From Polytrichum commune (lineage: Eukaryota > Streptophyta > Polytrichopsida > Polytrichales > Polytrichaceae), in NCBI GenBank assembly GCA_950295325.1, contig OX485805.1:17717501-17781500 (forward strand): a DNA stretch of 64,000 bases. Direction: 5' to 3'. A program made the translations under genes and the position numbers. Positions 7,946 through 57,538 of the stretch are shown in pieces (the stretch's first letter is position 1; every line of letters starts with the position of its first letter). The notes beneath the pieces were generated by a model. The model saw nothing but the letters and a program-made list of their open reading frames with translations. It had not been told where the DNA came from and did no database searches.

Positions 7946-10435
7946 TTCTTCCCCGCGGTAACATTGGAAAACTTCACCTACCAAGTGATTAACTTAACCA
8001 AAGTTTTTATGTCGGTGTTCTAAGTCGGGTCATAACTCAACATTAGGGTATTGTTGCACCCCTAGTGCCGGGAATTTTGCACCCCTAGTCCGACGTGCAC
8101 TTCTCTTAGGACATGAAACACTCGATTTAGTACAAGATGGTTAGCATTTTGAAATCGAGGTCATAGCCACTTGCGAAGATTCTTGTGCTTGTTAGATGAT
8201 CATACATATTTTCCCTAATTACATTGACTATTGAGCCTATAACTGTGGTTATCAAATTTTTAACACTTTGTTCAAAAAAATTAAACATGTGTCTTTTTAG
8301 TATCCATTGTTGGAGTCACATCTAACTACATGCCACTCAAATATAGGTGTCCAATTAAGATCAAAAACCCGATCAAGCACATCTACCTTATTTGCGTGTC
8401 GGGTGGACAATGCACAAATGAAGAATGAAATTTGGCTTTTTGTTTTCTTTCATATATGTTTCAAATTCACGGTCGGAAGTGAATTTGTTCCTAAAAACTG
8501 GAGTTACAACAAGGGGAGGGGATGAGGGGGGGGGGGGGGAGCTATCATAAATGATGCTTATTGAATGGCATAGGTTGCATACACGACATTTGATGTAGAG
8601 TTTGCATTGGCCTAGCAAATCACGTTGTCATGTTGGTTATTTGGACCTTCTTTTGAAGTTTCAATACTAAAGGGAAAAAATTACCTTGATATGTTAGGTC
8701 CAATCAATTGGCCAAAAAAAGACTGAATTTAAATAAGATACATGGGAACTATTTGATTTGTTTTTCATGTTCTCCAACTTCTACCAATCGTATTTACACA
8801 AACAAACTTATGTTGCATTAGCTAATCTATGATGAAACATAAGGAAAAATGAATTTGAAAATTGGATTGAAATTCAAACATCCCTTGATTTGGTGATGAT
8901 TATCAAAAGTGCATGTCTTTGGTTGGGTACTCAGGTTCCCAAGATTGTGTTGACTACTGAGTCTAGAATTGTTGATAAATTATGAGCATATAGTCTAATC
9001 TCTTTGAAATACGTGCATAATATATGTTTTGCTAGTTTCCTTTCTTAAATCTTGTCTTACTACATACCGCTCAATTATAAGTATCTAAATAAGATAAATA
9101 ACCAAATAAGGTTCACACACCGTACAAACTACATAATCATCGAGAGGATAGTGGATGATATAGGAACCAAATGTCATCCACCTACCCAAAATTATTATTA
9201 GTCATAACCAATTAGCTTGTGGATGGATTATGAGAATTATGGATGATATCATGCATTCATAAATGAAATTTTATGTCAAGCTCTATTACCCCTTGTGCTC
9301 TTGGATGAGCGGTCAATTGTGAAGGTGGATTTAAAGATGCTCACACATGTAGGTAACTCAACCTATCTAATCAACTAACGTGACTTCTAACTTAATAATG
9401 TTCATACATGCATGTAATGCGACCTTCTTATGCACAGGTGTCCGGCTTGTCAACTCCGGTGTATCTTGTCGTATCTTCAAATGGCTCTCCAAATGGTGGG
9501 GAGATAGTTTGACCACACTTGTGTTCACATGTGTAGATAAACTAACTATAAAGTTGAGTTAACTACAACTTTAAGGGCCATTGTTTTGTATTTAAAGGAT
9601 ATGGCTCTCTTCATTGCCTCGTGGCCCACATTGGCTAAAGTTTTAGGCACTTTGAGTGTGCTTGAAGGAGCCCTAGTTGGCCATGTGGGATCGATTGAAA
9701 GATGGCGAATGCGATTATATGTATTAGGATTATAAGTATGTGGCAATATGTTATATTTTTAGGGAGAGTGTACGTGGCTTTGTAGAGCCAATGGCCTCCA
9801 ATTCACAAAATTGTAGATGTAATTGTGGCTAATACACCTAAAGTACATCAAAATTTGGCTACATCTATGATATGGGGAATTGAACCCTGGTTAAGTCTTG
9901 ACCATGCTCACTACATCATGAAATGGCCTGCAAAACTACAAAATAGTACAACCCATCCACCGCCCACACATAATTAGTATATTGAGCACCTATCATGTGT
10001 TGCAGGTCATGGCCTACCAACATCTTCCTTCAACAACTCCATCCAAATATAACTAGTAAACTTACACAAAAACTCATTAAAAACTTACACCCTCAAACAT
10101 GCCATACAAGGTTCAAAGAGGACCCCGCATTCTTTTGTGCCCCCCCCCCTCCCCTTCATCTTGTTCCAAGATTTGATTACATGTTTTTTACATTGGATAC
10201 CTCTTGTAGAAGTAGAACTCCACTAGGCCTTTGTTTTCCAAGCCTCTACTTAGTGTTGCTAGTTGCACCTCAATTGTGTAAACATCAATTGTCGTTGCAT
10301 TTAGGAACTACTTGCAGCAACAAACACTACTAGTCATTTAATCTTTCGCCCACCGTTTCGTAAGGAAAAGTGTTCAAGGTCAAGGGCAGGGGGGGAGGGG
10401 GTGAACTATGTTTTTAATTCATGGATCTAGACACC
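7946..10435. other. AT-rich intergenic DNA with diverged inverted repeats
   Basis: No gene is supported here. A segment at about 8755-8850 is the approximate reverse complement of 7660-7750 (shared core AAGTTGGAGAACATG and a TAATGCAAC..ATGATGA stretch). A third relative lies near 24245-24330. These look like remnants of one old non-autonomous repeat family. A run of 15-16 G occurs at about 8526-8540 and a run of 10 C at about 10140. Confidence 0.4.
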
Positions 10436-10600
10436 CAGATAGATAGATAGAAACACCTGCCCTCTATCAAAAGGGCCGGCGTGAATAGAGTGTTTGTTCG
10501 TCTTGACAATGAGCCAGAGCCCACAGGACAAAGGGCCATTGGTACAAGACTACTCTCCCCTTTCGGGAATAGACACTTTAGTAGCCAAGAATAATTACTA
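10436..10600 (-). repeat. Dispersed repeat, copy 1 (simple-repeat tail)
   Basis: This is one of three copies of a ~170-bp repeat in the window; the others are 29822-30000 and the interrupted copy at 34830-36340. Shared cores are GGGCCGGCGTGAATA, then AGTGTTTGTTCGT, then CTACTCTCCCCTTTCG. On the plus strand each copy begins with a short tandem run, (GATA)n here and (AAG)n in copy 2. This fits a minus-strand retroposon with a variable simple-repeat 3' tail. No pol III boxes were seen, so the class is uncertain. Confidence 0.6.
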
Positions 10601-10654
10601 GTAACCCTTAGTGGTGTTGGTGAGTCATGTGGGTATATATTGGTGTTGGTTTTT

Positions 10655-10905
10655 TTTGTTGGAGGTCACCAAGTCATGGTTCCAAGGTTGGTTGGAACGT
10701 TTGTGCTACATTTATACGGTCCGGGTTCGATTCCCCTTGAGTCCGTATGAGCGTTTATTGTGGTGTTCATGACTTGGGACTGCTAGTGAATCTATTCATA
10801 GGCAGGGAAGTTTGTTGAGAACCAGCCGGCCCTATCCCTTTTTCCTGAGACAAGTGTTCACCTTGAGCTAGACATGTATTAATTGATTAATTGATTAATT
10901 GATGA
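10655..10905 (+). mobile_element. tRNA-derived SINE-like element
   Basis: A tRNA-like head contains a D-arm/A-box-like stretch (TGGTTCCAAGGTTGGTTGGA) and, about 35 bases on, a perfect B box (GGGTTCGATTCC). A body of ~120 bases follows and ends in a simple tail of (ATTAATTG)n then (ATG)n. This is the architecture of a plant tRNA-related SINE. Its tail abuts the tail of LINE copy A, which runs in the opposite direction, so the two appear tail to tail. Confidence 0.6.
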
Positions 10906-10956
10906 TGATGATTTTATTTTTTATTTTTTATTTTTGGTTAGTTTTGTGTTGTTGTT

Positions 10957-13900
10957 TTATTGATAAGGGGGTAGGGGTTGATTATTTTCTATTTTCCTTT
11001 TATGTAGTATAATTGATCCAGCATGTTGTATGGCGATGGTGTTGATTTCCTTGAATGTGTTTTTAATGGTAGTTTCTGCTATTTTGAAGTTTGTTTCAAG
11101 GAGTTTCATTGAGGGGGTGTGTGTTGTGCCTCTAGCTCCTGCTGTTATGACTATGAGTGGGTCGACTTTCCATCCTAGGTCTTTGATGTTATTTAATAAG
11201 GGTTGGTATTTGAGGATTTTGTTTTCAATTGTTTCTTGTGGGAATCTGTCATTACAGTATGTAAATTCAACGAATTGTATTGTGAGGTTGTCTGAGGGGT
11301 TTGGTGGTGGGTCATTATTGTACGGGTGACCTTTTACGCAGAGAATATCTGGTTTAAATTTGGCATTACAGTGACATCTTTGTTGTTCACATGAACATGC
11401 TAATAACCATGGAGGTACTGTGTTTTCCTGTGGTTTATTATTAAATGTTCCTGCGTTCATGAGGGTATAGCATCTTGATTTTTGTGATGATAGTATTAGT
11501 TTTCGTAACTCCCATACTGCTTTGTTATGTCTTTTGACTCTTATGGCGTGAATATGATGGTGGTTGCATTTTAGCAGTACGTGAAGCCATGTGTCCACAT
11601 CTTCAGAGTTACATATAGAGCATGTTATTGAGGGGAATCTTTCTCTTCCAAAAAATAATTGTTTCCTTGCATTGCCCATGTATTGGCCAGTGCGGAATTT
11701 TAATATATTAGTTTTTTGTGCATCTGTAATCATAGGGTTGTGCCAAAAAACATTGGATAGTTCGTTATCTATGTCTGGGTTCATAGTCCATTTGCTGATG
11801 TTAGGGATTTGGGTTGTCATAATTTCAATGTTATTTTCTTGGTCATGTTTGGTTAGATATGTTTGTAGGCATCTCACAAAGCCTTTATCTGGTCGTTTCA
11901 TAGGACCTGGCCAGATGTCTTTTTGGAAGTAGAATGGTGTGGTATGTGCAAATTCATATGATTTGGAGGCGGTGGAGTATCTTTTTTTGGCCCCTATTTT
12001 TGCCAATTTGTCTGCTTGTTCACTTCCTTTAATGTTAGTATGTGCTTTGACTTTATAGAATGTGGTGGGTTGGGTGCGTGTTTTTAATATTTCTACCATG
12101 CTTGTTAGTATTGTTTTGTCCGCATGGTTGTTATGTATAGTTGGGTGTTTAATGTGTGTGTTTAAATTATATAGGCAATTTAGGCAATCTGTAAATATGT
12201 GTGCTGGTTCGTTTGGGTATTTGGTAGATATTAGTTTGAGCGTTTTGTGGATGGCCATTAGTTCTGCTCGGAAGCTCGTTTGTAACCCCGGTAGTCTTTT
12301 CGAGATTTGTATGTCTGCTTTAGTTGAGTTGTATATTCCATAGCCGGCTTTTTCTTTTTTCCAGTGTCCGTTATCAGTCCGTTTGGGAGGTATGAAGGAT
12401 CCGTCGGTATAGTAGTTGTATTGTGGTTGGAATTTGAGTGTGGTGTTTGTTGTGAGGTTTGGAAGTGGCGGTGTGTTTGTTATGGTTCGGTAGGTTGTGG
12501 GTGGGTATATGAGTTTATTCCATTTTTTATTTTTGTTGACATGTGTATTGGGTGGGGTGGGTGGGGCATTTTGTACGTGGTATTGTGGGATTTGTAGGTT
12601 TTCGAGTACGGCTTTGATTGTGTTTAGTTGGTGGGGTGTGCCAATAAGGTGACTTTGGTGGTGGATACATAGGATTTGTATTGCAAGTGGTTATGTTTGT
12701 GGTTTGTGTAGTTCTTGGGGGATTGTTGGTTCTTCGTATGTTATTGTATCTGGCGCAAAGTGGGTGATGACGTGTGTGTCTGGGAATGGTCCGGTGCATG
12801 TGGATAGATCTTGGTACCAATTTATTTTTGGAGTTACTATTATGGTGATGGTGTTTGGGTCATTTTTGGTTGCCAGCCTTGCCCAGTGAATTGCTTGTTG
12901 AGTTGTTTCCTCGTTATGTGGGTGAGCATAACCTATACCTTCCCATTTGTATTGGAAAGCGGTACCTAATGATCCGAAAACTTTGTCCCTTGTAAAGGGA
13001 GAGTAAAATTTTGTGATTTGTGTTGAGCATGTTACTAGTGAGGAAAAATAGGAGTGGGAGATATTAAAAGTGCTAATGATAGAGTCGGTTATGCTAGTTG
13101 GTAGAATATGTTGTACTGTTTTTATTGGGTCTTTTTTGGGGATTTTACTTTTGTATCTCTGGTATAGCCAAACTATTTCCTTCTCAAATGCTTATGTTTG
13201 TGGCACTAACCCATGTGTGCTATAGCTTGCTTTGTTGTATTGTTGCCACAACCATTTAATTCTAGTGGTTGGTATAGTGATGAGGTGTTTACCAATGTCT
13301 TCATATATGTGAGTTTGTTCATTATTTACTTGTATGGTATCTTTATTGGCAATGATGTCCTTTTCTGGGTTACATTCTTTTATGAATATTTGTGTTAGTG
13401 GGATATTTGTAGGTGGGGGGATGAATCTTAAGTCTCTATTTTGTTCCAGGGGGAAGTGTGTGTTAATGATATTTTTGTAGTGTTCGTGTTGTGTTTTTGT
13501 GTAATATGTTATTAGTAATATAATGTTGTGTTCGATAACTGTTGGATGGTTAAGAGGGAAGAGATCTCGTTGTGGCATCCATTTGTTGTATCTGTCGTTG
13601 TTTTGGAGTGTCCATTGACATAAGTACGTGTTGTATTTTTTAGTTATTTTGTACTTGTCTTTTGAGATTTTTGTTTTGTGTTCTAATATTATGTTTACGG
13701 GGAATTTATGTGGCTGCTTTGTGATATTGGTAGGTGGGTTTGAGTGGTGTGGGTGTTGTGTAGTTAGGGCTTGGGGTGGGTTGATTGGTGTTCTCGGTAT
13801 TAGACTTTGGTTTTCTGAAATGTATTTTATTTTAAGTGTTTGGGGTGGTAGATGTAATGTGCATGAGTTTGGACAGTTTGGTGTGCAGCTTGGGTGACAG

Positions 13901-16900
13901 AACAGTTGTTCTACTATGTGTAGTGCACTTTTTTCTAGTCTGGTTGGGGTTTTGTAATATGTTTTGAAGTTGTCTAGTGTCATAAGATTTGTTCTGTTGG
14001 GGAGGGTGATGTGTTTAATTGTGTATATGTTTTGTGTTAATAGTTTGTGTAATAGTTTTAGTGATAGTTCGGGGTTGAGGTGTGGTAATTCTGTTAGGGT
14101 TTGCGCTCGCCATTTTCTTTCTAATTCTGTCTTATGGAGTTGGAAGTTTTCGTTCGTGCTTTTAAGGTGGATTCCTCCAGCTTTCTTTAATAGAAATAGT
14201 GTTCGTTTAGTTGGTGATCGAATACAATCATGTTGTTTTATTCTCGGGATTTCTTATGCCCCTCCGTGTTTAGCTAGAATGTGTTGTATGAGTCATTTGT
14301 ATATTATGCCTAATCTACCGGGGTCGTTAAGAGCGTTTCGAAGTTGTTCGCTAATGCATCGTAAATATGCATTTTTTAGTGAGAATGCTTCTAGTCCAAA
14401 TAATTCATGTGGTAATTGGGATATTACATTTGCTGTGCATTTTGGTAGTCCGCATATGATTTTTTGGATTCCTATGATTCTTTTGTCGAGTTTTTTGATG
14501 GTTGGTAGATAGTAAGGTACTGCATAGAAGCTATATGCTATACCTGCTCTTATGACTGTGTCAATCATGTTTATTTTTTATTTGATTGTGGCTGGGCACT
14601 TTGTTAGTTGTTTGCATTGATCTATTACTTTGTTTGTGGTGATGTATGTTTGAAGTTTCCATTTTAGTGAGGGTACTAGTTGAATACCTAAGTATACGTA
14701 GGGTTCATTTTGGTGTAGTACCGGTATTGGTTGATTCCTGTAGGATATGTTTTGATTTTGGATATGAGTTTTAAATGTTTGAGGTTTAGTTTTGGATTTG
14801 TTGGGGCATCCTGTGATGGCGCATTTTGGTACTCCTAAATCCATACCTGCCCATTCGCAGTATTTGTCTAGTTTTCTAGTTGGATTTGCAATGATTGGAA
14901 GTTATTTGAGATAGCTGCGAGGTCATCTGCATATGCTGCGGAACTAATGGTCAATTTGGATGTACCAAATGTGTATCCATTTTTACCTCTATGCAACCAG
15001 CGTAGCAGTGGTTCTAAAAATATGAGGAATAAATATGGGCTTAATGTGTCTCCTTGTATTGTGCCTCTTTGTATTGGTATTGGTTTTGTTTTTCCAAAGT
15101 GTTCGCCTGTAAATATAGTGGTTGATTGAGAGTATATATTTCCAACTAATATTGCTGCGTCTATTGGATATCCGAGGTCTTTCATTACGGCAAGTAGTCT
15201 TGCATGATCTAGGAAGCCGAATGCATTTTTAAAGTCTATGTATAGTAAGTATATGTTTTGGTTTGTAAATCTGATATCTTCTAAGGCTGCTATTAGTAGT
15301 TGTAGTTGTCTAGACTTGCTTCTCTCTGCTCTAAATCCTTCTTGGCTATCGTGGAGTATTTGGTGTTTTTCTCCGTATGCTGCTAGTATTAGTGTTAGGG
15401 TACTAGTAAATAGTTTGTATATTGTGTTTGCTAGTGCAATAGGTCTATGGTTTGATAATTGCGATGAATTGCTTTTTTTATATAGTAATATGGTTAGGCT
15501 GGTTTTCCATAAGGATGGTATTTGTTTTTATTTGTAGCAGTGGGTGAAGAACATGAATAGTAGTTTGTGGAAGCTTTCGGGCATGTTTTTAAGAATTACA
15601 TTTGGGATTTTGTCTGGGCCTGGGGTTTTGTTATTTGCTAAATGCTTTAGGCACAGGTCGTATGTTTCGTGGTCTAGGTATTCGTGTAGTGGGATTTGTG
15701 GGTTACCTCTTTTGTCTATAACAAATTCATCGAGGTCGTGCCATGGATATTGTCTAACTCCACATGTGCATTGTGGTGGGTGTTCAGGTTGGAAGTAACA
15801 TGTTGGGACTGTGGGTCTGTTGCTAATTGATTGTTGTATGTATAGTTCGTTGGCTATGTCCTCAGGGTTGGTTAGTATGTTATTATTTCTATCCATTATG
15901 CAGTCTAATGGTGGTGCTTCTTGGTTTTTGAAGACTTTTTTGTTTATTTTTTTTGGGTTTTTTTCTTATAGTTGTCTGTATTTTGATATGGCTTTTTTGA
16001 TACAGTCTTGGGTGTATTTTGTAGTGATTTTCCGGGCTTGTATGTTTGCAGTTTTGGCTAAGTCTGCTAATATTTTGATCCATTCTTGTTGATTTTGTTC
16101 TTGGTCCGGAGGTGGCGGGATGTTGACATGGGTATGTGTATTTAATTATTCTATGATTGGGTGTGATTGCCAATTTTGGGTGTTTTTTGTGATGTAAATT
16201 GCTTTTCTAATTAGGTGATAAGTAGATAGATGTTTTTTCCATTTTTTTTTAAGTTTTCTTGGGAGAAAGCCTCCTTGTAGAGCTGTACGATTGGTTAGTG
16301 TTGGGAGAGGTGGTGCCCTACACGTATCTTGTATTTTGTCTGATGTTTTTTGTATTATGTGATCTAATTGGCTGCACGATATTTGCCATTGGGTGTTAGT
16401 TAGTTGTTCGTTCATTAGTGTTGAGGTGAGATCGTTTATTTGGAATGCGTTTTCTTCAAAGAATTCTGTTTTGAATTTTTCAATGTTTTCTTCTGGAATG
16501 GGGTTTAGAATCCTTAGTGGGTCTATTATTGTTGTTGGTGTGGGCCTTGCTAGTAGTGTATTTGATGGTATATGTAATGTGACAGGTGAATGATCTGAGT
16601 TTAGGTTATGGTCATGGTTGGTGGTTGAAGTGTATAGAGAATTATTTGATGATTTGATGTAATATCCATCAATTAGACTAGTTTGGTTATAGTTTGGGCC
16701 ACCTTGTCTAGTGTATGGACTATTTGTTGGAATGTAAGTTAGTTGGAGGCTGTCTGTGTATGTGCGCCATTCTATATCTTCTGCTTGGGGTGGGGTGATG
16801 CTTAGTTCGTTATGTCTTCCTATTAGGGCAATGTCTCTGTTGAAGTCCCCGCACATTATGTATGTGTGATTTGGATGTGTTGTGATTTGTTGAGTTATAT

Positions 16901-17968
16901 TTTGTTGGATTATTGGTATATATTGGGTGTCTTCTGTATGTGAGGGCATATACATATGTATGATTAACCATGGTTGTAGGGGTTCATTATTGATTCTTAT
17001 TATCTGTAAGTATGGTGATATTCCTGCTGGGGTAGGGATTTTAGTTATGTTGCCTGGATATGCATATTTTTTATCTATGAGTATGAGGAGTCCCCCTCTT
17101 GTAGGGGTGTATGGCCATCTTTGTTGTATGCATCTAGTTAGTGTGTGTGTGTTATTAAATATTAATTTGTAGTTAGGGAATTGGTTTTGTATGTATTTGG
17201 TGGATTTTGTGGCGGTTATTTTAGTTTCTTGTATTGTAATTATTGCAGGGTTTTCTGGCGTGTTGGGGATTAGGTATTGGAGGCTTGGGAGTGTTGTGCT
17301 AAGGGATGAGGCATTCCAAGTAATAATGTGTGTAGTGTGGTTAGTTGTTTGTATTTCTACATTTTGACGTGTGGGTATGTCGGGTGGTGGGGGGGGGGGT
17401 GGGAGTATTCGTGTAGTGGTTCGTTGCACTTTATTGCTTCTTTGAGTAATTCAATTGGTAGATATGGGAATTTGTCGGTTATTGTTTGGAGAGTTATTGG
17501 TTCGTTGTGTTCTTTGATAAATTTGTAAATTTCGTTATGAATAGTATCTGATGGGTTAATTATGTTTTGGTTTGAGTTTAGGAATTGTGTGTATGGGTGT
17601 GGGGTAGAGATGTGTCTCTCGGGTGGGTTTTGTAATGTAGCCATTTTTTGTAGGAGTATTGATGTCCAGTCTGGGATAGGTGTCTGTAGTAGCTTGTTGT
17701 TGCATGTTTCTAATGAGGGGCTGATTGTAGTGATGAGTGCATATAATATTTGCGGGGGTGGGTGGTTTTGCTTTTGGGATATGTATAGGGAGAGGTATGG
17801 ATATTTGGTGTTTGTTTCTTGGTGGTTTGGGTGTGTGTTTTGTATTATAGGTGAGAATTGGGTTGCTAGATGTTGGTATTCTGGGTGGAGTTTAATTGTG
17901 CATGGTATAAAGTAAGTCTTACTGCGTCTTTTGTGGGTAAGTGGGTGTGTCGTTAGTATGTCTGGCAT
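10957..17968 (-). pseudogene. LINE A ORF2: APE, RT, MTase-like, RNase H, Zn finger, REL
   Basis: Reverse-transcriptase polyprotein broken into at least seven frame blocks by frameshifts and stops. Blocks in order: N-terminal region (17968-17400); APE endonuclease with ITWNASS, QETK, CGDFNRD and SDHSPV (about 17330-16560); fingers/palm (15896-15200); YADD active site (about 14930); thumb (14844-13192); FGSLG..KW.GIGYAHPHN domain (about 13000-12780); RNase H with YYTDGSF, RAELMAIHKTL, FTDCLN and a late KAHTN..QADKLAK (about 12400-11980); zinc finger CSICN...WLHVLLKC (about 11640-11560); restriction-like endonuclease with FKPDILC, VEFTYCND, KILKY and GARG (11360-11100). One frameshift sits in a G/C run at 17387-17398. 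The stop at 10957 closes a 433-codon C-terminal frame. Family assignment is inference from domain order. Confidence 0.85.
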
Positions 17969-17998
17969 AGGACCTGGGTTAGTTTCAATGTCTCCACC
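17969..17998 (-). other. 2A-like peptide motif GGDIETNPGP before ORF2
   Basis: The translated block reads LLLLLGGDIETNPGP and is followed at once by Met (17966-17968). It fits the 2A consensus D-(V/I)-E-x-N-P-G-P, including the hydrophobic run upstream. In known 2A sequences the ribosome skips the Gly-Pro bond. The frame is open upstream for about 230 codons through the repeat spacer, so the motif could release ORF2 from an upstream product. Copy D has the variant CGDIKPNPGP at the same place. Confidence 0.8.
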
Positions 17999-18039
17999 TA
18001 AGAGGAGGAGGAGTAGTTGGGTTATGTTTTTTATTAACA

Positions 18040-19440
18040 CTTTGTGCTTGTGTGGGTGGTGGTACCTATATTTAGTCTGTAGGTGTGTTATTCTATTTGT
18101 TTGCTTGGAGATTTTGACTTTGTTGCTGTTATGAGGGATATTCCGAGTGAGAGTTGTATTGGTTTTGAGGTTTGTTATGTGAGTGGTTTGTTTGTTTATT
18201 AATGTTTTTTTAATGTTTGTGTTGTTTTTCTCATGGCTTTGTGTTAATGTGTTGTTAAGTTTACTTAGTATTTTGATTAGTTGGTAATTTTTAATTTTAA
18301 TTTTAATTTTGTCTTTGTCTTTGTCTTCTTTTTTGTCTCTATTTATTTTGGCGAGGCCGGTAGGCCGAGCTTGTTTTAGTTTGTTAGTGTTTTTGTTTAG
18401 GTATTGTGTATTATTTTTGTAGTGTATTTTGACATTGTTTATTTTAGTTTGTGGTGTTATTACTATTTTGGGTTTTTCAGCGTAGACTTGAGTGTATGTG
18501 GGTGCTAGTAGATGTGAGTTTTTTATTACCATTTTGTTGTGTGGTAGAGTTAGTTTGTTGTGTGTTTTAGTTGGATTCTTTGTTATTATCTTGTGCTTGT
18601 GTGAGTGGAGAGGTTTGTGTTTAGTTTGTAGGTATATTGGTCTGTTGGTAATTTTGGTATTGTTGTTGTTAGAAGAGGTGCCCACCGTGAAAGTTTTATT
18701 GGTTTTGGTGTGTTGAGGTTGTTTATTTATTTTGTATGTTTCTTGTGTTATTGTGCTTTCATTCTTTTTTCTTTTTTATGTGTTGTTGGGTTTGCTTAGT
18801 AGTATGAGTGGGGGATATATTTTTTTGTTGTTATTGTTATTATTTTTATTTATGGCGAATCCTGTAGGCCAAGCTTGTTTTAGTTTGTAAGTGTTTATCT
18901 TTAGGTATTTTGTATTATTTATGTAGTTTATTTTACCATTCTTTCTTTTAGTTTGTGGTGTGTTTATTTTTTTGGATTCTTTAGAGTAGACTTTAATGTT
19001 TGTAGGTGCTAGTAGGTGTAAGTTTTCTATTACCAATGTGTTGTGTGGTGAAGTTAGTTTGTTGTGTAGTTTAGATGGATTCTTTATTAGTATCTTGTGT
19101 TTGTGTGGGTGGGGAATTTTGTACTTAGTTTTTAGATATATTAGTTTATTGGCAATTTTGGTATTGTTGTTGTTGGGAGGGGTGCCCAAAGTGGGTGTTT
19201 TATTGGTTTTAATGTGTCTAGGTTGTTTATTGTTAGTGTTATTATTATTTTTGTATGTTTTTTGGGTTTTTGTACTTTTATTCCTTTTTGTACTTTTTTT
19301 TATGTGTTGTTGGGTTTGTTTGGTAGTATTAGTGGGTGGTTTATTTTATTGTTGTTGTTTTTTTTGGCGAGGCCAGTAGGCCGAGCCCGTTTTAGTTGGA
19401 TTTTGTTTTTGTTTGGGGGTTGTGTTTTTATTTTGTAGTA
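18040..19440 (-). repeat. Three ~505-bp tandem repeats in LINE A ORF1-ORF2 spacer
   Basis: Three diverged head-to-tail units. Marker sites recur at 18350, 18854 and 19366 (spacings 504 and 512): each has GGCGA.(G/T)CC.GTAGGCC.AGC on the plus strand. A second marker (TTGTG.TTGTGTG.GTGG then TTTAGT.T.TAG.T) recurs near 18043, 18593 and 19099. The minus-strand translations of the units begin alike (MGTSSNNNNTKI and MGTPPNNNNTKI) but are low-complexity, rich in Asn, Lys and Thr, and broken by stops. A protein-coding role is doubtful. Confidence 0.75.
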
Positions 19441-19572
19441 TCTCTTGACACTTTTTATTCGGGCTTGTACATTTATTTTGATTTTGGGCTCTTTTTTTTT
19501 TTGTATATATTATAGTATCTATAGATACAAGTAGGAATGGATTATTTATTACCGTAGCGTTGTTTGACCAAG

Positions 19573-21204
19573 CTAGTTTGTCGTGTCCATGTTGCCTTCG
19601 ATGGCCGAGGAGCTGGCTCTTGTCATGTCTAGAGCTTGCATTGTTGTAGCAAGTTGTCTTTTTAGGAGTGTCATTTGTGTGTTGAGGGTTGATGTTGATT
19701 TCTCCGCGGCTTTCTCGGCAATTTGTTGTTGCTCACTTCGTAGTTCTTCCTTCATGGTGGTAATTTCTTCTCTTATTCCAACTATCTCTTTCATGAGGTC
19801 TTTGTGGGAGTTTTCTTTTGCGGGGATGTTTTCTAGTGCTTCTATGGTATTTGCAAGGGCAGTGTTCACATCACTAAACCCTAGTCTAGTGAGCTCAGTT
19901 GCATTTGGTGCATTTGCTCCATCAAGGCTCCTAGGGTGGGGGGTAAACTCTACATGTTTGCCAAGAAGTTTCACGGTTTTCTTGGCAAATGTTTTGTATA
20001 CCATTGCATTAAGGCATTGGATGTTGCATGAGCCAAGATGCTTTCCGTTCTTGTCATCCCGTTTGAAGAAGAAGTTAACCATATTCTTTGGCCCCATGTG
20101 TGCTTCAATGCTCTTCTCTATTTCTTCTATGCTCTTAGCTTTGTTGAGGTTTTTGGCGATGAGAATGAGAGCAATCTTTCTTGCGATGTCGTCCTTTGAT
20201 GCGTGTGTGCGGTCCGCTAGCTTCCCGTCTAGAATCTCGTGATTGTAGGTGATTTGATGCTCTTTCATCCGTTGTGCTTGTTCCGGGGAGGAGGCTACTA
20301 CCCATGCAAAGAGGTTTTCTTTTTTCTTTTGAATGTTTGTTATCTCGTATTCCGTTCCTCTTAGAAAACTTTCTTCTACGATTCTCTTGAATAACTCATA
20401 CCATTCTTTGGATTCTAGCTCCTCACTTGTAATTTTGACTGACAAGAGGTTGTTCAAAGCTAGGGAGTCATATGTTTTGCATACTTTTCCTCTTTTGAGT
20501 TTATCATCATCAAGTTTGAGAATGAATGGGCGGAGTCCTTGGAGGAGTCCCACCCCATCAATCTCGGGGGTTTTCAAGTGTAACTTGATTACCCCACTCC
20601 ACTTTGTGGATTTGTGGTAACACATAAGTGCAATGGGTTCCCCTATGATATCCCCAAGCTCAATGTTCATTTCTTTGAGCCTTGACTCTACTAACGTCAT
20701 GACTATGTTTTTTTCCCATTCAATTTCCCCCATTTCAAAGAGAATTGCAATTTGGTAATCAAATGAGAAGCCAAACTTGTCAACCTCAACATCCGATGGG
20801 ATTTGTGTGAGGTTGAAATGTTGTCCAACCTTACCATCCTCTCTAGAGTTAGGCCATTCATCTTGGGTAACAAAGGGGAAGGAAGATATGACGGATTGAC
20901 ATTCTCTAGCTTCTTTCTCTCTCATCCCATTTTTTACTAGAGTGGTTACCGGGACATTGCTATCCATGGGGAGTCCTTTTCCTCTATTAGTCCAATTCAT
21001 AGCTTGGTACCCAAGCCAAAAGGGAGGACGCTTCAAACCGGAGTTTGGTTTGCCCTTAGCCTTCTTTTGGTTTGTGGTGACTTGAGAGGTAGAGGAGGAG
21101 CGTTTTTGAGTTACAAACATTTCCACATCGGAGTCATTTTCTAGAGCTAGAAGTTTCTCTTTGTATCTTTGCGAGGAGCTAGAGTTTGTGGCCCGTTGAG
21201 ACAT
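19573..21204 (-). CDS. LINE A ORF1: two RRM-like folds and coiled coil
   Basis: An uninterrupted 543-codon frame, probably the nucleic-acid-binding (Gag-like) protein of LINE A. Start chosen at MSQRATNSSSS because copy D ORF1 starts at the matching place; the frame is open a further ~160 codons upstream. The N-terminus is Ser-rich and basic, followed by RPPFWLGYQAMN. A first beta-alpha-beta-beta-like unit covers about residues 150-235 (FDYQIAILFEM to RPFILKL). A second at about 335-420 (ALILIAKNL, SIEEIEKSIEAHMG, VNFFFKRD, SCNIQCLN, HVEFTPHP) has RRM order. A coiled coil covers about 455-530. No CCHC knuckle is present. The RRM call is read from pattern only. It shares many blocks with D (SFPFV.Q.EWP, NLTQIP.DVEV, FTPHP.SLDG). 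Confidence 0.8.
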   Translation of the reverse strand: MSQRATNSSSSQRYKEKLLALENDSDVEMFVTQKRSSSTSQVTTNQKKAKGKPNSGLKRPPFWLGYQAMNWTNRGKGLPMDSNVPVTTLVKNGMREKEARECQSVISSFPFVTQDEWPNSREDGKVGQHFNLTQIPSDVEVDKFGFSFDYQIAILFEMGEIEWEKNIVMTLVESRLKEMNIELGDIIGEPIALMCYHKSTKWSGVIKLHLKTPEIDGVGLLQGLRPFILKLDDDKLKRGKVCKTYDSLALNNLLSVKITSEELESKEWYELFKRIVEESFLRGTEYEITNIQKKKENLFAWVVASSPEQAQRMKEHQITYNHEILDGKLADRTHASKDDIARKIALILIAKNLNKAKSIEEIEKSIEAHMGPKNMVNFFFKRDDKNGKHLGSCNIQCLNAMVYKTFAKKTVKLLGKHVEFTPHPRSLDGANAPNATELTRLGFSDVNTALANTIEALENIPAKENSHKDLMKEIVGIREEITTMKEELRSEQQQIAEKAAEKSTSTLNTQMTLLKRQLATTMQALDMTRASSSAIEGNMDTTN

Positions 21205-21286
21205 TTTGAAAATGAGAAAAAATTGTGTTAATTTTCTAAAGCTTTTTGGTATAGAGTATCTCCTTGTAATCTCACGGTCTGCTTCT

Positions 21287-21308
21287 CCCCACAACTTAAT
21301 TTGTGGGG
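21287..21308. other. Perfect palindrome just upstream of ORF1 (LINE A)
   Basis: An inverted repeat CCCCACAA-CTTAAT-TTGTGGGG lies about 80 bases upstream of the ORF1 start. Copy D has CCACAACTTAATTTGTGG at 55580-55597, about 85 bases upstream of its ORF1. The surrounding leader is otherwise poorly conserved, so this stem-loop may be a functional RNA structure. It also encodes similar residues in the open upstream frame (PQIKLW and PQLNLW). Confidence 0.6.
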
Positions 21309-21958
21309 CCGGGCGAAGTATGACTTTCGAGAAGGAGAGGTGTTTTATGTGAGTAAGTTTGTTATACATACATTTATGCATATAGGAGTACTTTATGAAA
21401 AGAAGGGTGTGTTGTTTTGGGCCATTATATATTGGTATTTTACTAGTGTTCATCCATACATATTTTATAGAAGAGGTGTTGTGGTCATACATGCTAGGTA
21501 TTTGTATATAAGTGTAGTACGTATTAACTATGGTGTTGATAGGGTAAAGATTAGTTTCATGCCCGTTGCTTCTATACACATAATTCATATTGATTTTTTT
21601 CTTCCTAAGATTTTGCATGCATTTTTGGGCATATCCCTTATTCATATGTTTTTGGTGGGCAAGGGTGCATGCTTGCAAAATAAGCATCCCCAAGTGTTGT
21701 GAAGGGGTGTAAGGAAAATTCCTAGGGCTAGTGCTAAGAAGGCTATGAGAGTTATAGACAATATAGCAAGAGATACTAACTAGTGAAACATTATGTGAAG
21801 AACCTGAATTGTCTTTCTTGGTAACGGGCAGTTTGTTGGGTTGCTTCTACCTGTTCGTTGTCGTTCCCAAGCTTGTCTCCTCTCCCCGCCTCCTCACAGC
21901 TCCGCTTCTCGGTAGTTCGGTGCCTTGGTGCTCTCGGCTTCCTTTGCTGCTTGGCTTC

Positions 21959-22060
21959 GGGGTCGGCTGTTCCCTGGCTGATTCTCCTCTCGCTCCTCTC
22001 GCTGGTGTCGGGGTCGGCTGTTCCCGGGCTGATTCTCCTCTCGCTCATCTCGCTGGCGTT
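21959..22060 (-). repeat. 51-bp direct duplication in LINE A leader
   Basis: Two adjacent 51-bp copies start at 21959 and 22010, both with GGGGTCGGCTGTTCCC followed by GGGCTGATTCTCC or TGGCTGATTCTCC, then TCTCGCT. They differ at only a few positions. Confidence 0.85.
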
Positions 22061-22439
22061 GGCTTAGCTTCGGTGTTGGGATCGTGCTGACTGCGGCATA
22101 GATCCTTGGCCGCCTCCTTGTTAGTACCAGGGTCTTCGGTTCTTCGGCACAGCTCTTTATAGTGGCTGGTTGGGACAACATTTAGTCGATGTTTTCTGTC
22201 GTGGGAGTGTTTGGACAGTAATGACACATTGTTGTCTCTGTTAGGTTTTCGGTGGTGGCGGCTCTCATTTCTTGCTGTGATTTTGCCCTTTGTGGTGTTG
22301 GTTTTTTCTCCTGTGCTTGTGATGCTTAAAGTGTCGCCATTGTGGTTTTGTTGGTGTAGTTTGGATGCTCGGTGTCTGGACGATCCTCCTCTCGCTTGGG
22401 TCTGTTGTGTTGTTGGCTTGCTGGTTTCGGCGATGGGGT

Positions 22440-23070
22440 CGATGCTGTTGGGTTTCGGTGGCACGGATTCGATGTCGCTGGTCGTCAGCGTCGTCGCAGA
22501 TGTGCCTGTTGGGCCTGCTCTCTGTTGTTTAGATGTTTGTTTGTCTCTCGTCTTCTTTTCTGTTGGCCCACCTTTGAGCTTCGGTGGTATAGATTCGGTG
22601 TTTTTGATCTCCGGCATCGTTGCAGCTTTGTATGTTGGGCCTGCGGGCAGTTGACTCTCCGTTGTTCGGTCTATTTGTTTCTGTCTTGTTGGTTCGCCTT
22701 TGGATTCTGGCGGCATAGATTCGGTGACGTTGGTCTCCGGCGTTGTTGCAGTTGCTCCTGCTGGGTCCGCGGGCAGCTGTTTCGGTGTTGGTTGGCCTTT
22801 TTCCTTCTGTCTTGTCGGCTTACCTTTGAATTTCGACGGCGTAATTTTGGTGCCGATGGTCGCCATTGTTATTGCAGTTGTTTTTGTTGGGCCTGCGGGT
22901 AGCTGTCTCGGCGTCGGTCAGTCTTTTTTCTTCTGATTTGTTTGTTCTCCTCTGAGCTTTGGTGGCACCGGTTTGGTGTTGTTGCTCGCCGGCGTCGATG
23001 CAGCTATGCATGCTGGATCTGCGGGCAGTTGTCTTGGCGTTGGTCGGACTTCTATCCTTTGTCTTGTTGA
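22440..23070 (-). repeat. 126-bp tandem repeats (5 copies) in LINE A 5' region
   Basis: A marker of the form G(G/A)(T/C)GGC..(A/G).TT.G.T recurs at 22457, 22583, 22709, 22835 and 22961, exactly 126 bases apart. Each unit also contains TTGTTGGGCCTGCGGGCAG-like and CTTTGAGCTTCGG-like blocks. The array is GC-richer than its surroundings. Because 126 is divisible by 3, four units stay open in one minus-strand frame (22045-22866). The array most resembles promoter monomers of some LINE leaders, but this is not proven. Confidence 0.8.
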
Positions 23071-23759
23071 CTTCATTTTTGATGGGTCGTGTTGTCTCTC
23101 CTAATGTGGTTTCGACGAGGTTGGTTCTGTGCAGGTGATCTTTCGTCTTACCTGCGATGTTTTTCTGATCTTGCTGGAATGCTGGTTGCAGGTACATTTT
23201 GTTGCGGTTGCTGACTTTGTTTCGTTCACAGCTGCCTCCCCGCTGGTCTCGGTATGTGTATGTGTCGTTCTGCATTCTTTTCCGGTGTTGGCCTTGAAGC
23301 AGAGAGTTTGCATGATTTGTTGGCTGCAATGAGACATGTACAATTGCATAGAAGTTATAGATCTTACCTTTGTTTGTCGTGTTTGATGTTGGGTTGTGGG
23401 CTGGCCGTTTTGATGTTGAGCCCTCGATTGCAGTGGCCTTGGTTGATACGTCCTCATTCGGTTATTTGTTGGGTGCTGCAGGTTAGTGTGGATCACTAGA
23501 TGTTTCTTGGCCTCAGTGTTGACAACCTCCGCGCATAGGGACTGCTCTATTGTTGCACAAGGAAACATGTCTATGTTGTACGTGGTTAGTATGGGGGTTT
23601 TGGTAATATAGATAGGGTTATAACAAAGTTGTGTGCCAAATTGTGGAATAAAGACAATTGCAAGAGTAGTGTGAGAATGTGCAAGCCTGTGTGTTTGAGT
23701 CATTTGGTGTGCCTTCCTTGTGTGGTTTGGGGCGAGTCAGATCTGGCTGAAGAGTGGCC

Positions 23760-25179
23760 TAGGAGTTTGGATCTTTGTCGTGAGTGGTGAGCATGGTGGG
23801 CTAGTTGCAGTCAAGTAATGGTGGAAGAAAATAGCCCAGCCTATTTTCCTTTTGTTTTGATGCAACACACATCTCATGCCAACACACATTTTTTGCATTT
23901 TGGTGCAACTTCACCCTAAAATGTAATGCAAAGGACTTAAACTCAAACAGATTGAGATCTAGCACTACAAAAGAGCACCCAACATGCTCACCATTCCATT
24001 TCTTGTTTGAACGGCGCCCCAGCGCACCACTAGTCCCCCATGCTCCATCTCAGTTGCAAAGATCGTTGCTCATGTGGTAGAGAGTTCTTGGGCGACTCTC
24101 TGCGGCTGGCTCTTCAGATCCATCTTCCTTCCCTTTACCACATTTCGCGGAGCTTCAGCCGTTCATTCCCTCTCCCCCTTGATCCTCTAGACACCCACAT
24201 TTTATAAGCGCAACAAAACAAAGGGTGATTCGAATCTCAACCAAGACCATGTTGATGATTCATCATAGTTTTGTTAATGCAACACAAATTTCAAAACATA
24301 ACTATGAATAATGGAAGATGGAAAACAACGAAATATTAACCCACTAAGGTAGGCGTGCCTAATTCAACTACTTATCTAAATTTGACATTTATATTCAAGA
24401 GGTGTGTGGTTTGGTGCGGCTCCAAGATTGGATACAGAAGAAACACATGTTTAAATGAGATGGGTATATGTGTTCACGATACATTAACCATTCTAAGCTC
24501 CATAGTTCTCATAACGGGGGTGGGATGGGGGGAGGCTATATGACTATTTTACAAACATGAGAATGACATTCACTTTGATAATGAACAAAATATTGATAGA
24601 AGCTTCATAAACTATGAGGAAAGTGGCAACGACTTAAATTTGGATTTGCTAAGTATCTTAGTACTAATTGTGAGTTTCATCTCCTACGAGGAGAACTGGG
24701 TTAGTTGGAAAAAGTAACCATTTAAGACACCCGCATACCTTAGGGAGATGGATGAAGTTTGGGCTTGTGGGTTTTAGGTTCACGTGGGGTCCTATGAACT
24801 TATGAAGAAGTCTTGGCCACCACCACTCATAAGTGTGCCTTGGGGTCTTCATGCACGATGTGGGTCTCTTTTTGGAATGCCAATCCGACCTTGGAATTGG
24901 ACGCTAAGGAGTGAGCCTCGGTAGACCCCATGTCCGAATGTCAAGAATGTGTCCGTGTTGGAGTCATGGAACGCGTCGAGTTAGAGAAATACATTAGAAT
25001 ATGGTTGACATAGAAACGGGAGATTCTTATAAATAGATCGTCACATCGTTTTCAACAATGAAATTTTCAACCGCTCCTCCCACCCTTTCAAGTTGCAATT
25101 TTCAATTTCAAAGTCACCTATAGGCTTATCCAAGACTTCCGAGTTGATTTGGTTTGACTAAATTCACAAAACAAGTCAC
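23760..25179. other. Intergenic DNA, no gene seen
   Basis: AT-rich DNA with no supported gene. The stretch at about 24245-24330 resembles 7660-7760 and the reverse complement of 8755-8850, so it is a third piece of that old repeat family. Confidence 0.35.
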
Positions 25180-29821: not shown

Positions 29822-30000
29822 CAAGAAGAAGAAGAAGAAGAAGAAGAACTCCGGTCTTTGAAGGCGGTTGGGAGTGAATAAAGTGTTTGTTCGTAGAACA
29901 TCCCTGGCCACAACCTAGGGCAATGGCATTAGATGTAAAACTACTTCACCCTTTGCAAGGAGTAGACACTACATTAATGACTTATAGCCTTTACCAGTAA
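29822..30000 (-). repeat. Dispersed repeat, copy 2
   Basis: This copy begins with (AAG)n at 29822-29847, then ACTCCGGTCTTTGAAGGCGG, GTGAATAAAGTGTTTGTTCGT and a diverged CTTCACCCTTTGCAAGG block. It is the most diverged of the three copies. It lies directly beside the 3' end of LINE fragment B. Confidence 0.5.
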
Positions 30001-30082
30001 CCGGTAGTATGTGACCTTTAGTAGCGGTAGTCATGGTGGCACTACTACATGGGAGGGGTATATCGGGTTTTTTAATGTTTAG

Positions 30083-32140
30083 TTATGCTAGATCGTGTAG
30101 GTTTGTGATAGGTTGTCTATTTTCTAGCCTCCTTTTATGGACTAATATCATATGTGCATATTGTATGGCAATTATGTTGATTTGTTTAAATGTGTTTTTG
30201 ATTTTCATGGTAGGGAGTTTAAGTTTTGTTTCTAGTTCTTTCATTGATTGGATGTGAGTTGTGGCTCTTGTACCTACGTATAAGACCATAAGTGGTGCTA
30301 CATTTCATCCTCTTAATGCGACATTGTTGATGAACGGTTGATATTTTGTGGTTAATCTCTCGAGAGTCTCTGCAATAAATTTGTTGTTACAATATGTAAA
30401 TTATAATAATTGTGTGGTGATTTATGGTGTATGGGCTTCTGGTGGCGGATAATTGTATAGGTGACCTATGATGCACAATACGTCAGGTTTGAACATGGCG
30501 TTACAATGGCACCTTTGGGCACCGCATGTGCAAAACATTAGCTATGTTGGTACTATGTTTTATTGAGGTAGTCCATTATATGTGCATGCGTTCATAAGTG
30601 TGTAATGTCTTGATGTCTTGTTTGAGATGATAAGTTTACATATTTCCTATACAACTTGGTATGCCTCTTTGTTATTAGCGCATGAGTGTGTTGTTGTTTG
30701 CATTAAAGGAGTACTTTTAACCACATATATGTATCTAATGAGTTACAAATAGGGCATGTATTTGATGGGTATGCTTCTCTACCAAAGAAGAGTTGTTTCT
30801 GAGCATGTCCCATATATTGTCCAATGCGGAATTTTATTAGGCACGTTTTTTGTTTATTTTTTATGATAGAATTTTTCCAAAAGTCATTTGATAGTACCTT
30901 GTTGATATCTTTGTTGTCACGCCATTTATGTAGTTGGTGTGTTTGATTTGCTATAATTTCTAGGTTATACTTTTTATCATATTTAAGGATGTATTTACCA
31001 AGGTGCCGAATGGGGACTTTGTCTGGTGTTTCTTGCATTGATTGCCACCGATTTTTTTTTGAGGTAGTATGGTGTAGGGTGTGCATGTTCATATGTTGCT
31101 ACGACGTTTCTATGGTCCAGTTCGCAACCCAATTTGACTAGTGTGTTTGCTTTGTTGCCATTTATGTTCGTGTGGGCTTTGACTTTATGGAGTGTGGTGG
31201 TTTGTGTGCGGGATTGTAGCATTTTAATCATAGATTTGAGTATACCTTTATATGGGTGGTTGTTATGCAGGGTTGGGTGTTTGACTTGTGCATTCAGTAG
31301 GTATAGGACATCGAGGCAATATGTGAAGATATGTAGTGGTGAGGAGATGGAGGGTATAGCCATCAAATTTGCTCGTAGTATGTTTTGTAGCCCCGATAGC
31401 TTTTTTGCAATCCTAAGATTTTTAAAGGAGTTGTATATCCCATATCATGCATTTTCTCGTTTCTAGTGTTCTTGAGTCGTTTCTTTAAGCGATTTGAATG
31501 ACCCGTCTGTGTAGTAACAAAATTGCAGTTGGTATTTGAGGGGTAGACATATGTCTAGGTTGGTGATTAGTGGGGTATCAATGGTTTGGGTGATAGGTGG
31601 GTGTGAGGGTATATGAATTTAGACCATTTCGTACTACGGTTTACTGGAGTGTTTATTGGTGTAGGTGGTGTAATTTTGGTGAACATTGCGGGTATATGTA
31701 GGATGTTAGTAATGAAGTTCAGTTGGTGGGTATATTTCGTTGACCCAATGGGTGTAATCTAGTTGTGTGTATGCATAATATACGGATGGCATGGCTTCTT
31801 GTTCTTGGTTCAATTCGTAATTATGGTGGTATTGTTGGCTCTTCATATATGATGGTGTTAGCCTTGAAGTGTGTGATGACGTGTGAATCTAGGAAGGGGC
31901 CATCGTGGGGGTTAAGATTGTGGTAGTAGTTTAGGTATGTTACGAGTATTGTAAATTTGTTTGAGTTGTTTTTGGTTGCAAGTCTTGCTCAGTGGAGGGT
32001 TTGTTGGGCTTCATTTTGTGTATGTGGATGGACATATCTATACACTTTTCATTTGTATTAGAATTTTGTTCCTATTGATCCAAATACTCTATCCATGTGA
32101 AATGGGGAAGAAAATTGTCTAATCATAAGTGTATGTAGAG
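30083..32140 (-). pseudogene. LINE fragment B: 3' part of ORF2
   Basis: A 5'-truncated, heavily decayed copy of the LINE A ORF2 C-terminal half. Recognisable in order: VFGSIG...YVHPHT (about 32085-32020), an RNase H remnant (31366-31130), the linker LEIIANQTHQLHKW (31092 block), the zinc finger CPICNS (about 30750), and the restriction-like domain ending in VGTRATTHIQSMKELE and the stop at 30083. It ends about 32 residues from the RNase H tail order seen in A, with no gaps in domain order. 5' truncation is typical of target-primed reverse transcription. Confidence 0.8.
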
Positions 32141-34829
32141 TTGGGGTTTCCAACAAGAGGACCACATGAGGGGCATGGGCCTTATGTACCATGTCGCTCT
32201 TCTTAAGTGGAGGCCTACATTTGATTGAGATTTGGCAAGCTTGAAGTCAACAACAATCACTAGAAAGGAACATGTTATGACGAGATTGGGCTATGTATAT
32301 GGACAAAGAGAATCTTCATTGTGACCTTATTCAAAATTTGCACGTCAACTCCACTTATGAAACTTGAAATGACAACCCAAAGACAACCTTCATAATATGC
32401 ACATGCTAGCCGGATAAGACAATTTCCAAGCCACTCCAAAATCACAAAAGCATGCAAAGTTGAAAGTCTCAAAATTTGAACCACATAAGTTATTTTACCC
32501 CCCACATGCTCAAGCCTTCACATTTCATTTTATGGCATTCCTAGCACCAATGCTAAATTTTATGTTATGTACACAAATAGGTTTTATTTTCTTACATCCA
32601 ACCGTACATATGTGAACTACACTACCATATATCACACTTGCATGAAAATTTGAAGTCAATCGGACCACATTTGCTAGGTCACATAACACATGGACATGGC
32701 CTTCATCCGGGGGGCAACTACACAAAATTTGATTTTTTTTTTTTTTGGTTTTGTGACCATTTTGGTCATCCTATAATTTTTAGAAAGTTGGAAACTTTGC
32801 CATAATATGTTGTGTGGATGACAAAGGAGCTACTCCTAAAAATTTGGGTTTCTTGAGAAAATGTAGATAAAATCCATCACCCTCAAAGTTGGAGGGGCCA
32901 CATGAGGTCATTTTGGGATATTTCCCATTTTCCATAGAGCAAGCAACATGTTCACTATTTGTTCCCAAAATCCATATAGTCAAGTTATGCACAACCGTCG
33001 CCTTGTCCCAAGGGAAAAAAATCCCACCCAAATTGGACATCATATGTGAAAGAAATTGCTTATAAATCAGGTTCCTAAATTTGGGTCATACATTTGGGCA
33101 ACACTTGGAACCACCTCCCAAAACAAGCAATGCCAATCTAACGAAAAATTCTACATCCTTGGAGTTTGAGGTTTTTATATGCTTTTATAGCCCACACTGT
33201 AGTGGACACCAATAGATACCTTCCATTCATGTAGATTGCCATCTAGTGGCTCGCAAACCCCATTAGAATATTAGGTGGTGACCCATTTCAGATTGCATGA
33301 GCATTTAAGGGTTAAAGTAAGTAGATCTCGAACAAACATTTTTAACTCTACATCCACTTTTCAAAGATTAAGAAACACACAATTAGTGCAAGATGATTAG
33401 CAAATCCAAATTGTGCATGTCGCCACTTTCTGCATAATTTTTGGAGCTTGACATATGAATATTTGATTAATTAAGATTCTCTTGCTCATCAAATGATTAT
33501 ATAGGTCCTTTGACTATTAACCTAAAATATGCCTAGTCTAGTCTCTTTTAAACACATAACTTCTATTATGATGTTTGTTCGATACGTAATCCAATTGTAT
33601 GAATTATTTCTTTGATATTTCCCTCATAACTCTATTTTCTTTAAATTAATCTCGTTTTGTACATAAGAAACCCCTTATTTTGACATTTCTATTTTAGCTC
33701 GATACCCTCTACCAGGTAGGGGTTACATATATACATAACCACACACCACTGAAATATAGGCATCCATTTAAGGTGAGTAACGGATTACGCCCGCTTGGGG
33801 TGTAGTTGCACCACCTAGTTAAGAGAATCAACTAACTCACGAGTTAGTGAAGATCAACTAAGCAAGATCCTAACTAACTAAAATCATGGTCAAATAAGTT
33901 GCACCATCTCATGAGGAGAATTGGCTAAAAACATGAGTTTAGCGAGAATCGACTTACTAATATGCTAGCTAATTGATCGCATGCCTGAACATCCTGATTA
34001 CAACTAACCAAAAGTTGGCCAATTTAAGAGAGGAGTTGAAGTTGACAGACCAAAGTTTTACTCAAGTCGCTCAAGTTTTGAGCATGACACTAATTATGAT
34101 ACATTCTAAGTTTGTGGCCAACAAATATTTGCATTTCGTTATTATTAATCTAAACCGAATATATTAATTGTATTTTTAATATAATATTCATGTAAATTTG
34201 AGCACCAAAGTTTAGGTTGCTATTATTTCACCAATATATTATTACCTTTTAATTTTCAAACGTATGCTAATGTAGGGTGATGTAAGAAATAGTGTGGTCT
34301 TCTTTTGTAGCGGAATGGAGAAGAGATGGGAAAATGAGAAGCATGCATTTAAGAAACAAATCAGATTATTCATTGGTAGAAAGTTAGCTAGAATTAGGAG
34401 TTTGGATGACTTAATATTTCTTAACCAAAACAAAGTCCAAAAATTAACCAACTCTAGTTTGATAAAAGAAAATTTATTAAACCTTCTTCTTAATTAGGTG
34501 GTACGGGTGTGAGATTGATCAACTCTCATATAGGTTAGCTACCTCATATGCCACATTGATTGTCACATTTTGTGCGCGTGGTATTAGTTCCTAAAACAGA
34601 CACTATTTTGCCATGTCTCAAAACTAACGAGGGTTGATATTTCGACTATGTGGTACTAAATTCACAAATACTTGCTCATTTACAATACATATAAAAATAA
34701 AAATAAAATGCTCTACGGTGTTTGTGGGGTGATAAACGAAAGTACATGCAAACACATGTTTATCAACATCACACTCAACCCTCTGATTGACATCCATTTA
34801 TATCTTTCGGCATCCGAAATGGGCCTCCA
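32141..34829. other. Intergenic DNA, no gene seen
   Basis: AT-rich, with only short frames. No protein family, RNA gene or clear repeat was recognised. Confidence 0.35.
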
Positions 34830-34892
34830 GATAGATCGATAGATCGAAACTCCGGTCCCTTTTTAGCAAGGGGCCGGCGTGAATAAAGTGTC

Positions 34893-57300: not shown

Positions 57301-57538
57301 TTTCGACAAACATCCCGGCGGCGTACAATTATAAATTATTTATAGTATATTTATATACTAAAAACAAAAATACAATTAAAGTATTAATATATACTAAAAA
57401 TAAAACCCTACCTATAGTATTCATGAATACTATAACATCAAAAATTCAAAAAGAAAACCCCCCCAACACCTCACAAAAACAAATTTATTTACTCACAATA
57501 CAACAATATCCTATCCAATATAACAAAGTACACAATAC

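Follow-up and report, generated by a model that had tools for sequence, protein, structure and literature searches.

A putative dual-endonuclease LINE with a PCIF1/CAPAM-like domain in the genome of a moss-like land plant

Does a land plant genome harbor a long interspersed nuclear element (LINE) equipped with two endonucleases of different types? The question is raised by a 64,000-nucleotide stretch of contig OX485805.1 (assembly GCA_950295325.1, positions 17,717,501 to 17,781,500, forward strand), referred to here at its full length as the window. A first-pass annotation had proposed that positions 10957-17968 encode both an apurinic/apyrimidinic-type endonuclease (APE) and a restriction-like endonuclease (REL), an association typical of the Dualen/RandI group. 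Elements of this group are of particular interest since the presence of both nucleases in Dualen underlies the view, as outlined in PMC4640811, that APE LINEs arose from restriction-like endonuclease (RLE) LINEs by nuclease replacement.

We consider it likely, from sequence comparisons, that the window contains an autonomous non-LTR retrotransposon with a dual-endonuclease, Dualen/RandI-like architecture and with recent activity in the genome of a moss-like land plant. The order of its components is ORF1, a leader, a 2A site, APE, reverse transcriptase (RT), a PCIF1/CAPAM-like domain, RNase H, a CCHC zinc knuckle, REL, a structured 3′ RNA and a short-repeat tail. The PCIF1/CAPAM-like domain, the 2A (StopGo) site and the covarying 3′-terminal RNA structure had all been missed in the first reading and are new here.

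The two endonucleases and the reverse transcriptase

The features initially named in 10957-17968 were borne out, all on the minus strand: APE motifs at the N-terminus of ORF2 (PF14529, 4.3e-07), an RT with a YADD motif (PF00078, 1.4e-08), RNase H (PF00075, 1.1e-04 on a partial open reading frame and 3.5e-15 in the intact relative L013) and a CCHC knuckle followed by the C-terminal FKPD, VEFTYCND, KILKY and GARG blocks. The interval itself corresponds to ORF2 of one copy, A; the full element is larger, as delimited by its target site duplications (TSDs; Table 1). Eight in-frame stops interrupt ORF2 of copy A, and its reading frame changes twice from one aligned stretch to the next. The whole genome (407.8 Mb in 64 contigs) contains at least 97 matches to the C-terminal 433 residues (97 of 6,305 candidates scored, all 97 matching), and among the matches listed open ORF2 frames of 2,625-2,924 residues occur at six places. 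The four that were read (L013, L015, L017 and L034) all retain the catalytic residues of APE, RT, RNase H and REL, including the N, E, GDFN and SDH motifs of APE, for which there are also Pfam matches.

The ORF2 domains are under purifying selection. Between L015 and L034, omega is 0.07 for APE, 0.07 for RT, 0.08 for the PCIF1-like domain, 0.05 for RNase H and 0.12 for REL (Nei-Gojobori method, own script, pairs marked as saturated being left out; in pairs with L013 synonymous sites are at or near saturation). L015 and L017, located on separate contigs, are 99.5% identical across 9.2 kb, which points to recent activity.

The C-terminal domain is probably a REL, judging from motif order and conservation. 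In RLE LINEs, according to the account in PMC5678591, the nuclease lies behind a CX2-3CX7-8HX4C knuckle and takes its catalytic lysine from a KX2KY motif in the second helix, where it is the first K. The element shows the same succession: CX2CX9HX4C, then KPD or RPD, VEFT or IEFT, and finally KILKY, KIQKY, KNNKY, KTNKY and other variants, with P, D, E, K, K and Y invariant in all 14 aligned copies. All four intact ORF2s that were read carry the ordered CCHC-PD-D/E-KX2KY motif, which did not arise in any of 5000 shuffles made from one of these ORF2s. A stricter version, devised after R2 had been inspected, requires GAR at its end; it was again present in all four and in 0/20000 shuffles (2/20000 without GAR). 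The REL of R2 in PDB chains reads KPDLIFV..VVDVTV..EKVRKY..GARG, the GARG block being present in two of the three distinct R2s.

A number of observations weigh against this assignment. An hhalign comparison of the C-terminus with three R2 REL sequences gave a weak match, P 0.041 with a probability of 1.3%, against P 0.80 and 0.84 for two unrelated domains of the element used as controls. In the hhalign register KPD and K..KY are aligned but the catalytic E does not fall on the D of R2. The C-terminus has no Pfam match and, in a PDB profile search, one unrelated weak match; an R2-REL HMM was not significant even among four sequences. Pairwise comparison with R2 REL was far above shuffles in only one of nine alignments, and the best placement of R2 REL within the whole ORF2 fell in the C-terminal domain in only three of eight tries. 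Between PD and E lie 26 residues, and the CCHC spacing is X9 instead of X7-8. AlphaFold models of the PCIF1-like and REL regions are of very low confidence (mean pLDDT 38.7 and 36.8); they were built from window sequences only, a badly aligned row for copy D having been dropped, and the strand/helix order of the REL model was given no weight. The profile similarity to R2 REL is weak, while the RLE-LINE signature itself is present and conserved.

These same observations bear on whether only APE is functional, the REL-like domain being degenerate or repurposed for DNA or RNA binding. The weak similarity to R2 REL and the long PD-E insertion would fit such a situation, and TSDs of 12-14 nt are compatible with APE acting alone, but the invariance of the six residues, an omega of 0.12-0.14 for REL in three pairs and the full RLE-LINE motif order argue against it. 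We regard it as quite improbable. The dual-endonuclease reading stands as far as the APE and REL motifs, both maintained by selection, are concerned, and is weaker where it calls on R2 profiles.

Among solved chains, the RT is most similar to an R2 chain, 9nl2 (7.1e-34), followed by LINE-1 ORF2p (2.2e-19) and by 8gh6 (1.7e-17), presumably the R2 of Bombyx. An unrooted tree of 11 RTs, covering the element, L1 and R2, resolves these into three separate groups with support of 97/97 or better, subject to a long-branch warning. The L1 group (four rows: human and three from the host genome) excludes the element at 99/97. The grouping with L1 that would have spoken against a Dualen-like origin is not observed in this tree, and its restriction to these three sets of RTs is a point against the putative Dualen-like assignment. 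Scans of collections of viral and genome contigs with the RT, and of viral contigs with the REL and PCIF1-like alignments, returned no relatives.

The composition of the tree also leaves room for an I-type or other APE LINE which independently gained a REL-like tail and is no relative of Dualen; RNase H, moreover, is also found in I-group and plant L1 LINEs according to PMC4640811. The exclusion of the element from the L1 group and the better match of its RT to R2 than to LINE-1 ORF2p argue against such an origin, which we consider unlikely. Our preference remains with a Dualen/RandI-like element. What it has in common with that group is an APE with its catalytic residues, a C-terminal REL (by signature) comparable to the PD-(D/E)XK-like nuclease described there, a short-repeat rather than poly(A) tail and an RNase H, which occurs in Dualen/RandI (PMC4640811). 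It differs in its host, a moss-like land plant, and in its size of ~13 kb; in addition, its PCIF1-like domain and 2A site are not mentioned in the partial descriptions of Dualen at hand. With R2 and other RLE LINEs it shares the succession of CCHC and PD..D/E..KX2KY, the GARG block seen in two of the three R2s, and the best RT match; it differs from them by its APE, its RNase H, its separate ORF1 and its three insertion sites with different TSDs. The L1 LINEs of the host genome are likewise APE-type LINEs with an RT but were found via zf-RVT, and the RTs of the three examined fall together with human L1.

The first-pass annotation gave green algae as the group in which Dualen/RandI was described. 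This is incomplete, LINE/Dualen being reported as expanded in cryptophytes as well (PMC12747079). Among the matches listed in a literature search of titles and abstracts, with primary papers on Dualen, adenine methylases and 2A in LINEs outside its scope, there was no land-plant Dualen and no PCIF1-bearing LINE.

The PCIF1/CAPAM-like domain

Between RT and RNase H, ORF2 includes a region matching PF12237 (2.2e-12 in the whole ORF2 of L013, 4.6e-08 in L015), found in 13/13 family members with a best E-value of 1.1e-13. This Pfam family corresponds to the CAPAM-like methyltransferase and not to the WW domain (PMC7641849). Over a 95-residue stretch of PCIF1, the mRNA cap-adenosine N6-methyltransferase, L013 shows 37% identity, FGS.G included. 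PCIF1 chains align at E-values of 7.1e-04 and 4.4e-03, and six comparisons with PCIF1 fragments, each with 2000 shuffles, gave z values of 7.2-15.7. Two scores are less favorable: the L015 match is barely above the Pfam cut-off (33.3 versus 31.1 bits) and, in a PDB profile search with the family profile, PCIF1 was recovered at only 0.022 and 0.045. The genome includes at least 150 PCIF1-like matches (150 of 698 candidates scored, all above the Pfam cut-off), and when a PCIF1 fragment was compared with the genome to look for a host gene as possible donor, the best of the 150 matches listed (201 candidates) was a LINE copy.

NPPF is the catalytic motif of PCIF1. In the element, where the domain is part of a LINE polyprotein, this site reads HP[HPY][NT], with Asn replaced by His, in 13/13 aligned copies (read by eye). 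Because the motif is replaced, the domain, although kept by selection, is probably not an ordinary methyltransferase. Could it nevertheless be an active adenine methyltransferase, depositing N6-methyladenine on element RNA or new DNA copies? Its clear homology to PCIF1 and the omega of 0.08 between L015 and L034 would fit an active enzyme, and retrotransposons with captured DNA methyltransferases are known (PMC5890265). The loss of NPPF argues to the contrary, as does the match in L013, which covers the profile only up to position 144 of 176; in some genomic copies it extends to 160-173. We regard an active enzyme as unlikely. The captured cytosine methyltransferases of Symbiodinium LINE/DIRS and Klebsormidium Gypsy elements, as presented in PMC5890265, provide a parallel as captured and selected methyltransferase-family domains but belong to an unrelated enzyme family and to other element classes and hosts.

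Some family members also have a weak chromodomain-like region (YLCQW..W..Q) between RT and the PCIF1-like domain. The idea arose from the strand pattern in a low-confidence structure model. Matches with E-values of 1 or less occur in 5/14 members, the best (0.033 in the member survey, 0.023 in another search) failing the cut-off; a PDB profile search was empty, and the similarity is no more than suggestive.

The 2A site, the 3′ end, the copies and their host

Position 17968, where the first reading placed the start of ORF2, is a Met codon directly following the proline of a 2A motif, GDIETNPGP. A degenerate DNA pattern for GDIExNPGP has 186 sites in the genome against none for the reversed pattern. 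Among the first 100 sites listed (contigs C1-C3), at least 42 are followed at a distance of 3-14 kb, in the same orientation, by a PCIF1-like match from the set of 150, and at least 65 when 88 further PCIF1-like or REL matches are added; both controls, upstream and opposite strand, gave 0. 2A sequences function in plant cells (PMC4981915), and PMC12846837 reports no evidence for their natural use by plant viruses. In L015, the ORF1 and ORF2 frames overlap by ~25 nt (8434-8458), and its ORF2 could be reached via frameshift or reinitiation. The ORF1 of A has a relative in copy B (42% identical), and no Pfam family matches it above cut-off.

From 13 of 14 copies the terminal 134-140 nt preceding the tail were collected (L012 had no match to the pattern), and 12 of these sequences were aligned, L036 being excluded. 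Their consensus forms six helices in which 92.5% of cells pair. Of 38 base pairs, 15 change on both sides, a value reached in 0/500 shuffles, slid controls giving 2-6. A structured 3′ RNA is also a feature of R2. Nothing exceeded the Rfam gathering score in five loci and there was no match whatever in the L013 3′ UTR. The terminal hairpin is followed by (CTAT)n, (TTC)n or T(n), all short-repeat, non-poly(A) tails; in RandI, tails are non-A in 8/8 families (PMC3747384).

A genome DNA search with the L013 3′ structure was scored for the best 40 of 1,354 candidates. Within the window, the structure also has matches without an ORF2, at 36212-36340 (minus strand, 96 bits) and 34849-34913 (minus strand, 30 bits). 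The former has only ~97 nt in common with the LINE 3′ end, inside other sequence, and is perhaps a SINE which borrows the LINE 3′ structure. In several families, GAATCGAACC(C/T)GG or a close variant follows the ORF2 stop, ahead of the terminal structure (~10700-10760 on the minus strand, and the L013 and L015 3′ UTRs). It resembles a tRNA T-arm/B box on the opposite strand; the tails of L035 and L040 showed none, and ARAGORN detected no tRNA in the window.

The four copies initially reported, A to D, were all recovered by tblastn (Table 1). The ORF2 of copy B, as far as the window covers it, has two stops. Three of the four elements tested have identifiable TSDs, of 12, 14 and 13 nt, and the three insertion sites differ in their TSD. 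Counting against the overall reading, no TSD was accepted for L015, where a 10-mer was found 30 nt off. Regions 10000-20000 and 58000-64000 of the window exhibit a strong strand asymmetry, the coding strand being poor in G and T, with a GC skew magnitude of up to ~0.5.

Table 1. Coordinates of the element copies and their features in the window
Feature	Position	Strand	Remarks
Element A, full-length LINE, ~13.7 kb	10438..24185	-	bounded by 12-nt TSD TGGGTGTCTAGA
5′ TSD of A, TGGGTGTCTAGA	24186..24197	-	
3′ TSD of A, TGGGTGTCTAGA	10426..10437	-	
ORF1 of A, 706 aa	19573..21693	-	
Two direct-repeat copies in leader upstream of 2A	18320..19123	-	300 nt each, spaced 504 nt, 81% alike
2A (StopGo) site GDIETNPGP	17969..17995	-	agrees with D(V/I)ExNPGP
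APE endonuclease domain	16530..17318	-	
RT (YADD)	14353..15689	-	four stop-free pieces
Weak chromodomain-like region (suggestive only)	13312..13713	-	in some family members
PCIF1/CAPAM-like methyltransferase domain	12694..13191	-	NPPF replaced by HPHN; between RT and RNase H
RNase H domain	11950..12462	-	D, E, D, D checked in intact relatives; His by eye
CCHC zinc knuckle CX2CX9HX4C	11566..11622	-	
Putative REL core: PD, E, KX2KY, GARG	11119..11352	-	
3′-terminal conserved RNA structure	10453..10589	-	
(CTAT)n tail of A	10438..10450	-	
Copy C, 5′-truncated and degraded	29848..32153	-	tblastn
Copy D, old, very degraded fragment	47982..48940	-	tblastn
Element B (L018), ~12.5 kb in all	53135..64000	+	13-nt TSD TTCCATAGCCTTT at 53122-53134; passes window end to ~65.6 kb in window numbering

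The genome had been described as vascular-plant-like. It contains four matches to LEAFY, whose presence identifies the host as a streptophyte, and the two that were read (C1:40569930, L048; C7:8639033, L049) carry Asp in LFDLYEQC of the DNA-binding domain, which we take to be the moss type. The host is thus probably a moss and not a vascular plant. Contigs C1-C7 (77.9 to 42.1 Mb) sum to ~406 Mb and are probably seven chromosomes, a number that would be in keeping with Polytrichaceae.

A possible retrotransposition pathway and its implications

The arrangement of domains suggests how the element might transpose. StopGo activity at the 2A motif would free the ORF2 protein from the leader, and this protein would then recognize the conserved 3′ RNA structure and the tail. 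One endonuclease, most likely APE, would nick the target and prime reverse transcription. The REL of R2 makes the second-strand cut; the REL of the element may similarly make or resolve a second cut, on the second strand or at the junction, with RNase H presumably clearing the RNA. The PCIF1-like domain, given the loss of NPPF, might most likely bind the capped 5′ end of the element or its RNA without methylating it, a suggestion we make with reserve. A more elaborate model would combine these steps: two active endonucleases would split the labor, APE cutting the first strand and REL the second, and the element would use its captured relative of PCIF1/CAPAM to recognize or mark its own mRNA at the capped 5′ end, with RT holding the 3′ structure, so that only full-length RNA is copied. 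This is speculative and rather unlikely.

A dual-endonuclease element of this type could help to explain the relation between the two known classes of LINE. Belonging to a young lineage of land-plant elements in which intact frames survive, it allows the question of which nuclease cuts which strand to be asked directly, and its covarying 3′ RNA offers a concrete, testable substrate. A PCIF1-like domain fixed in a LINE would, in turn, point to a role for cap biology in retrotransposition.

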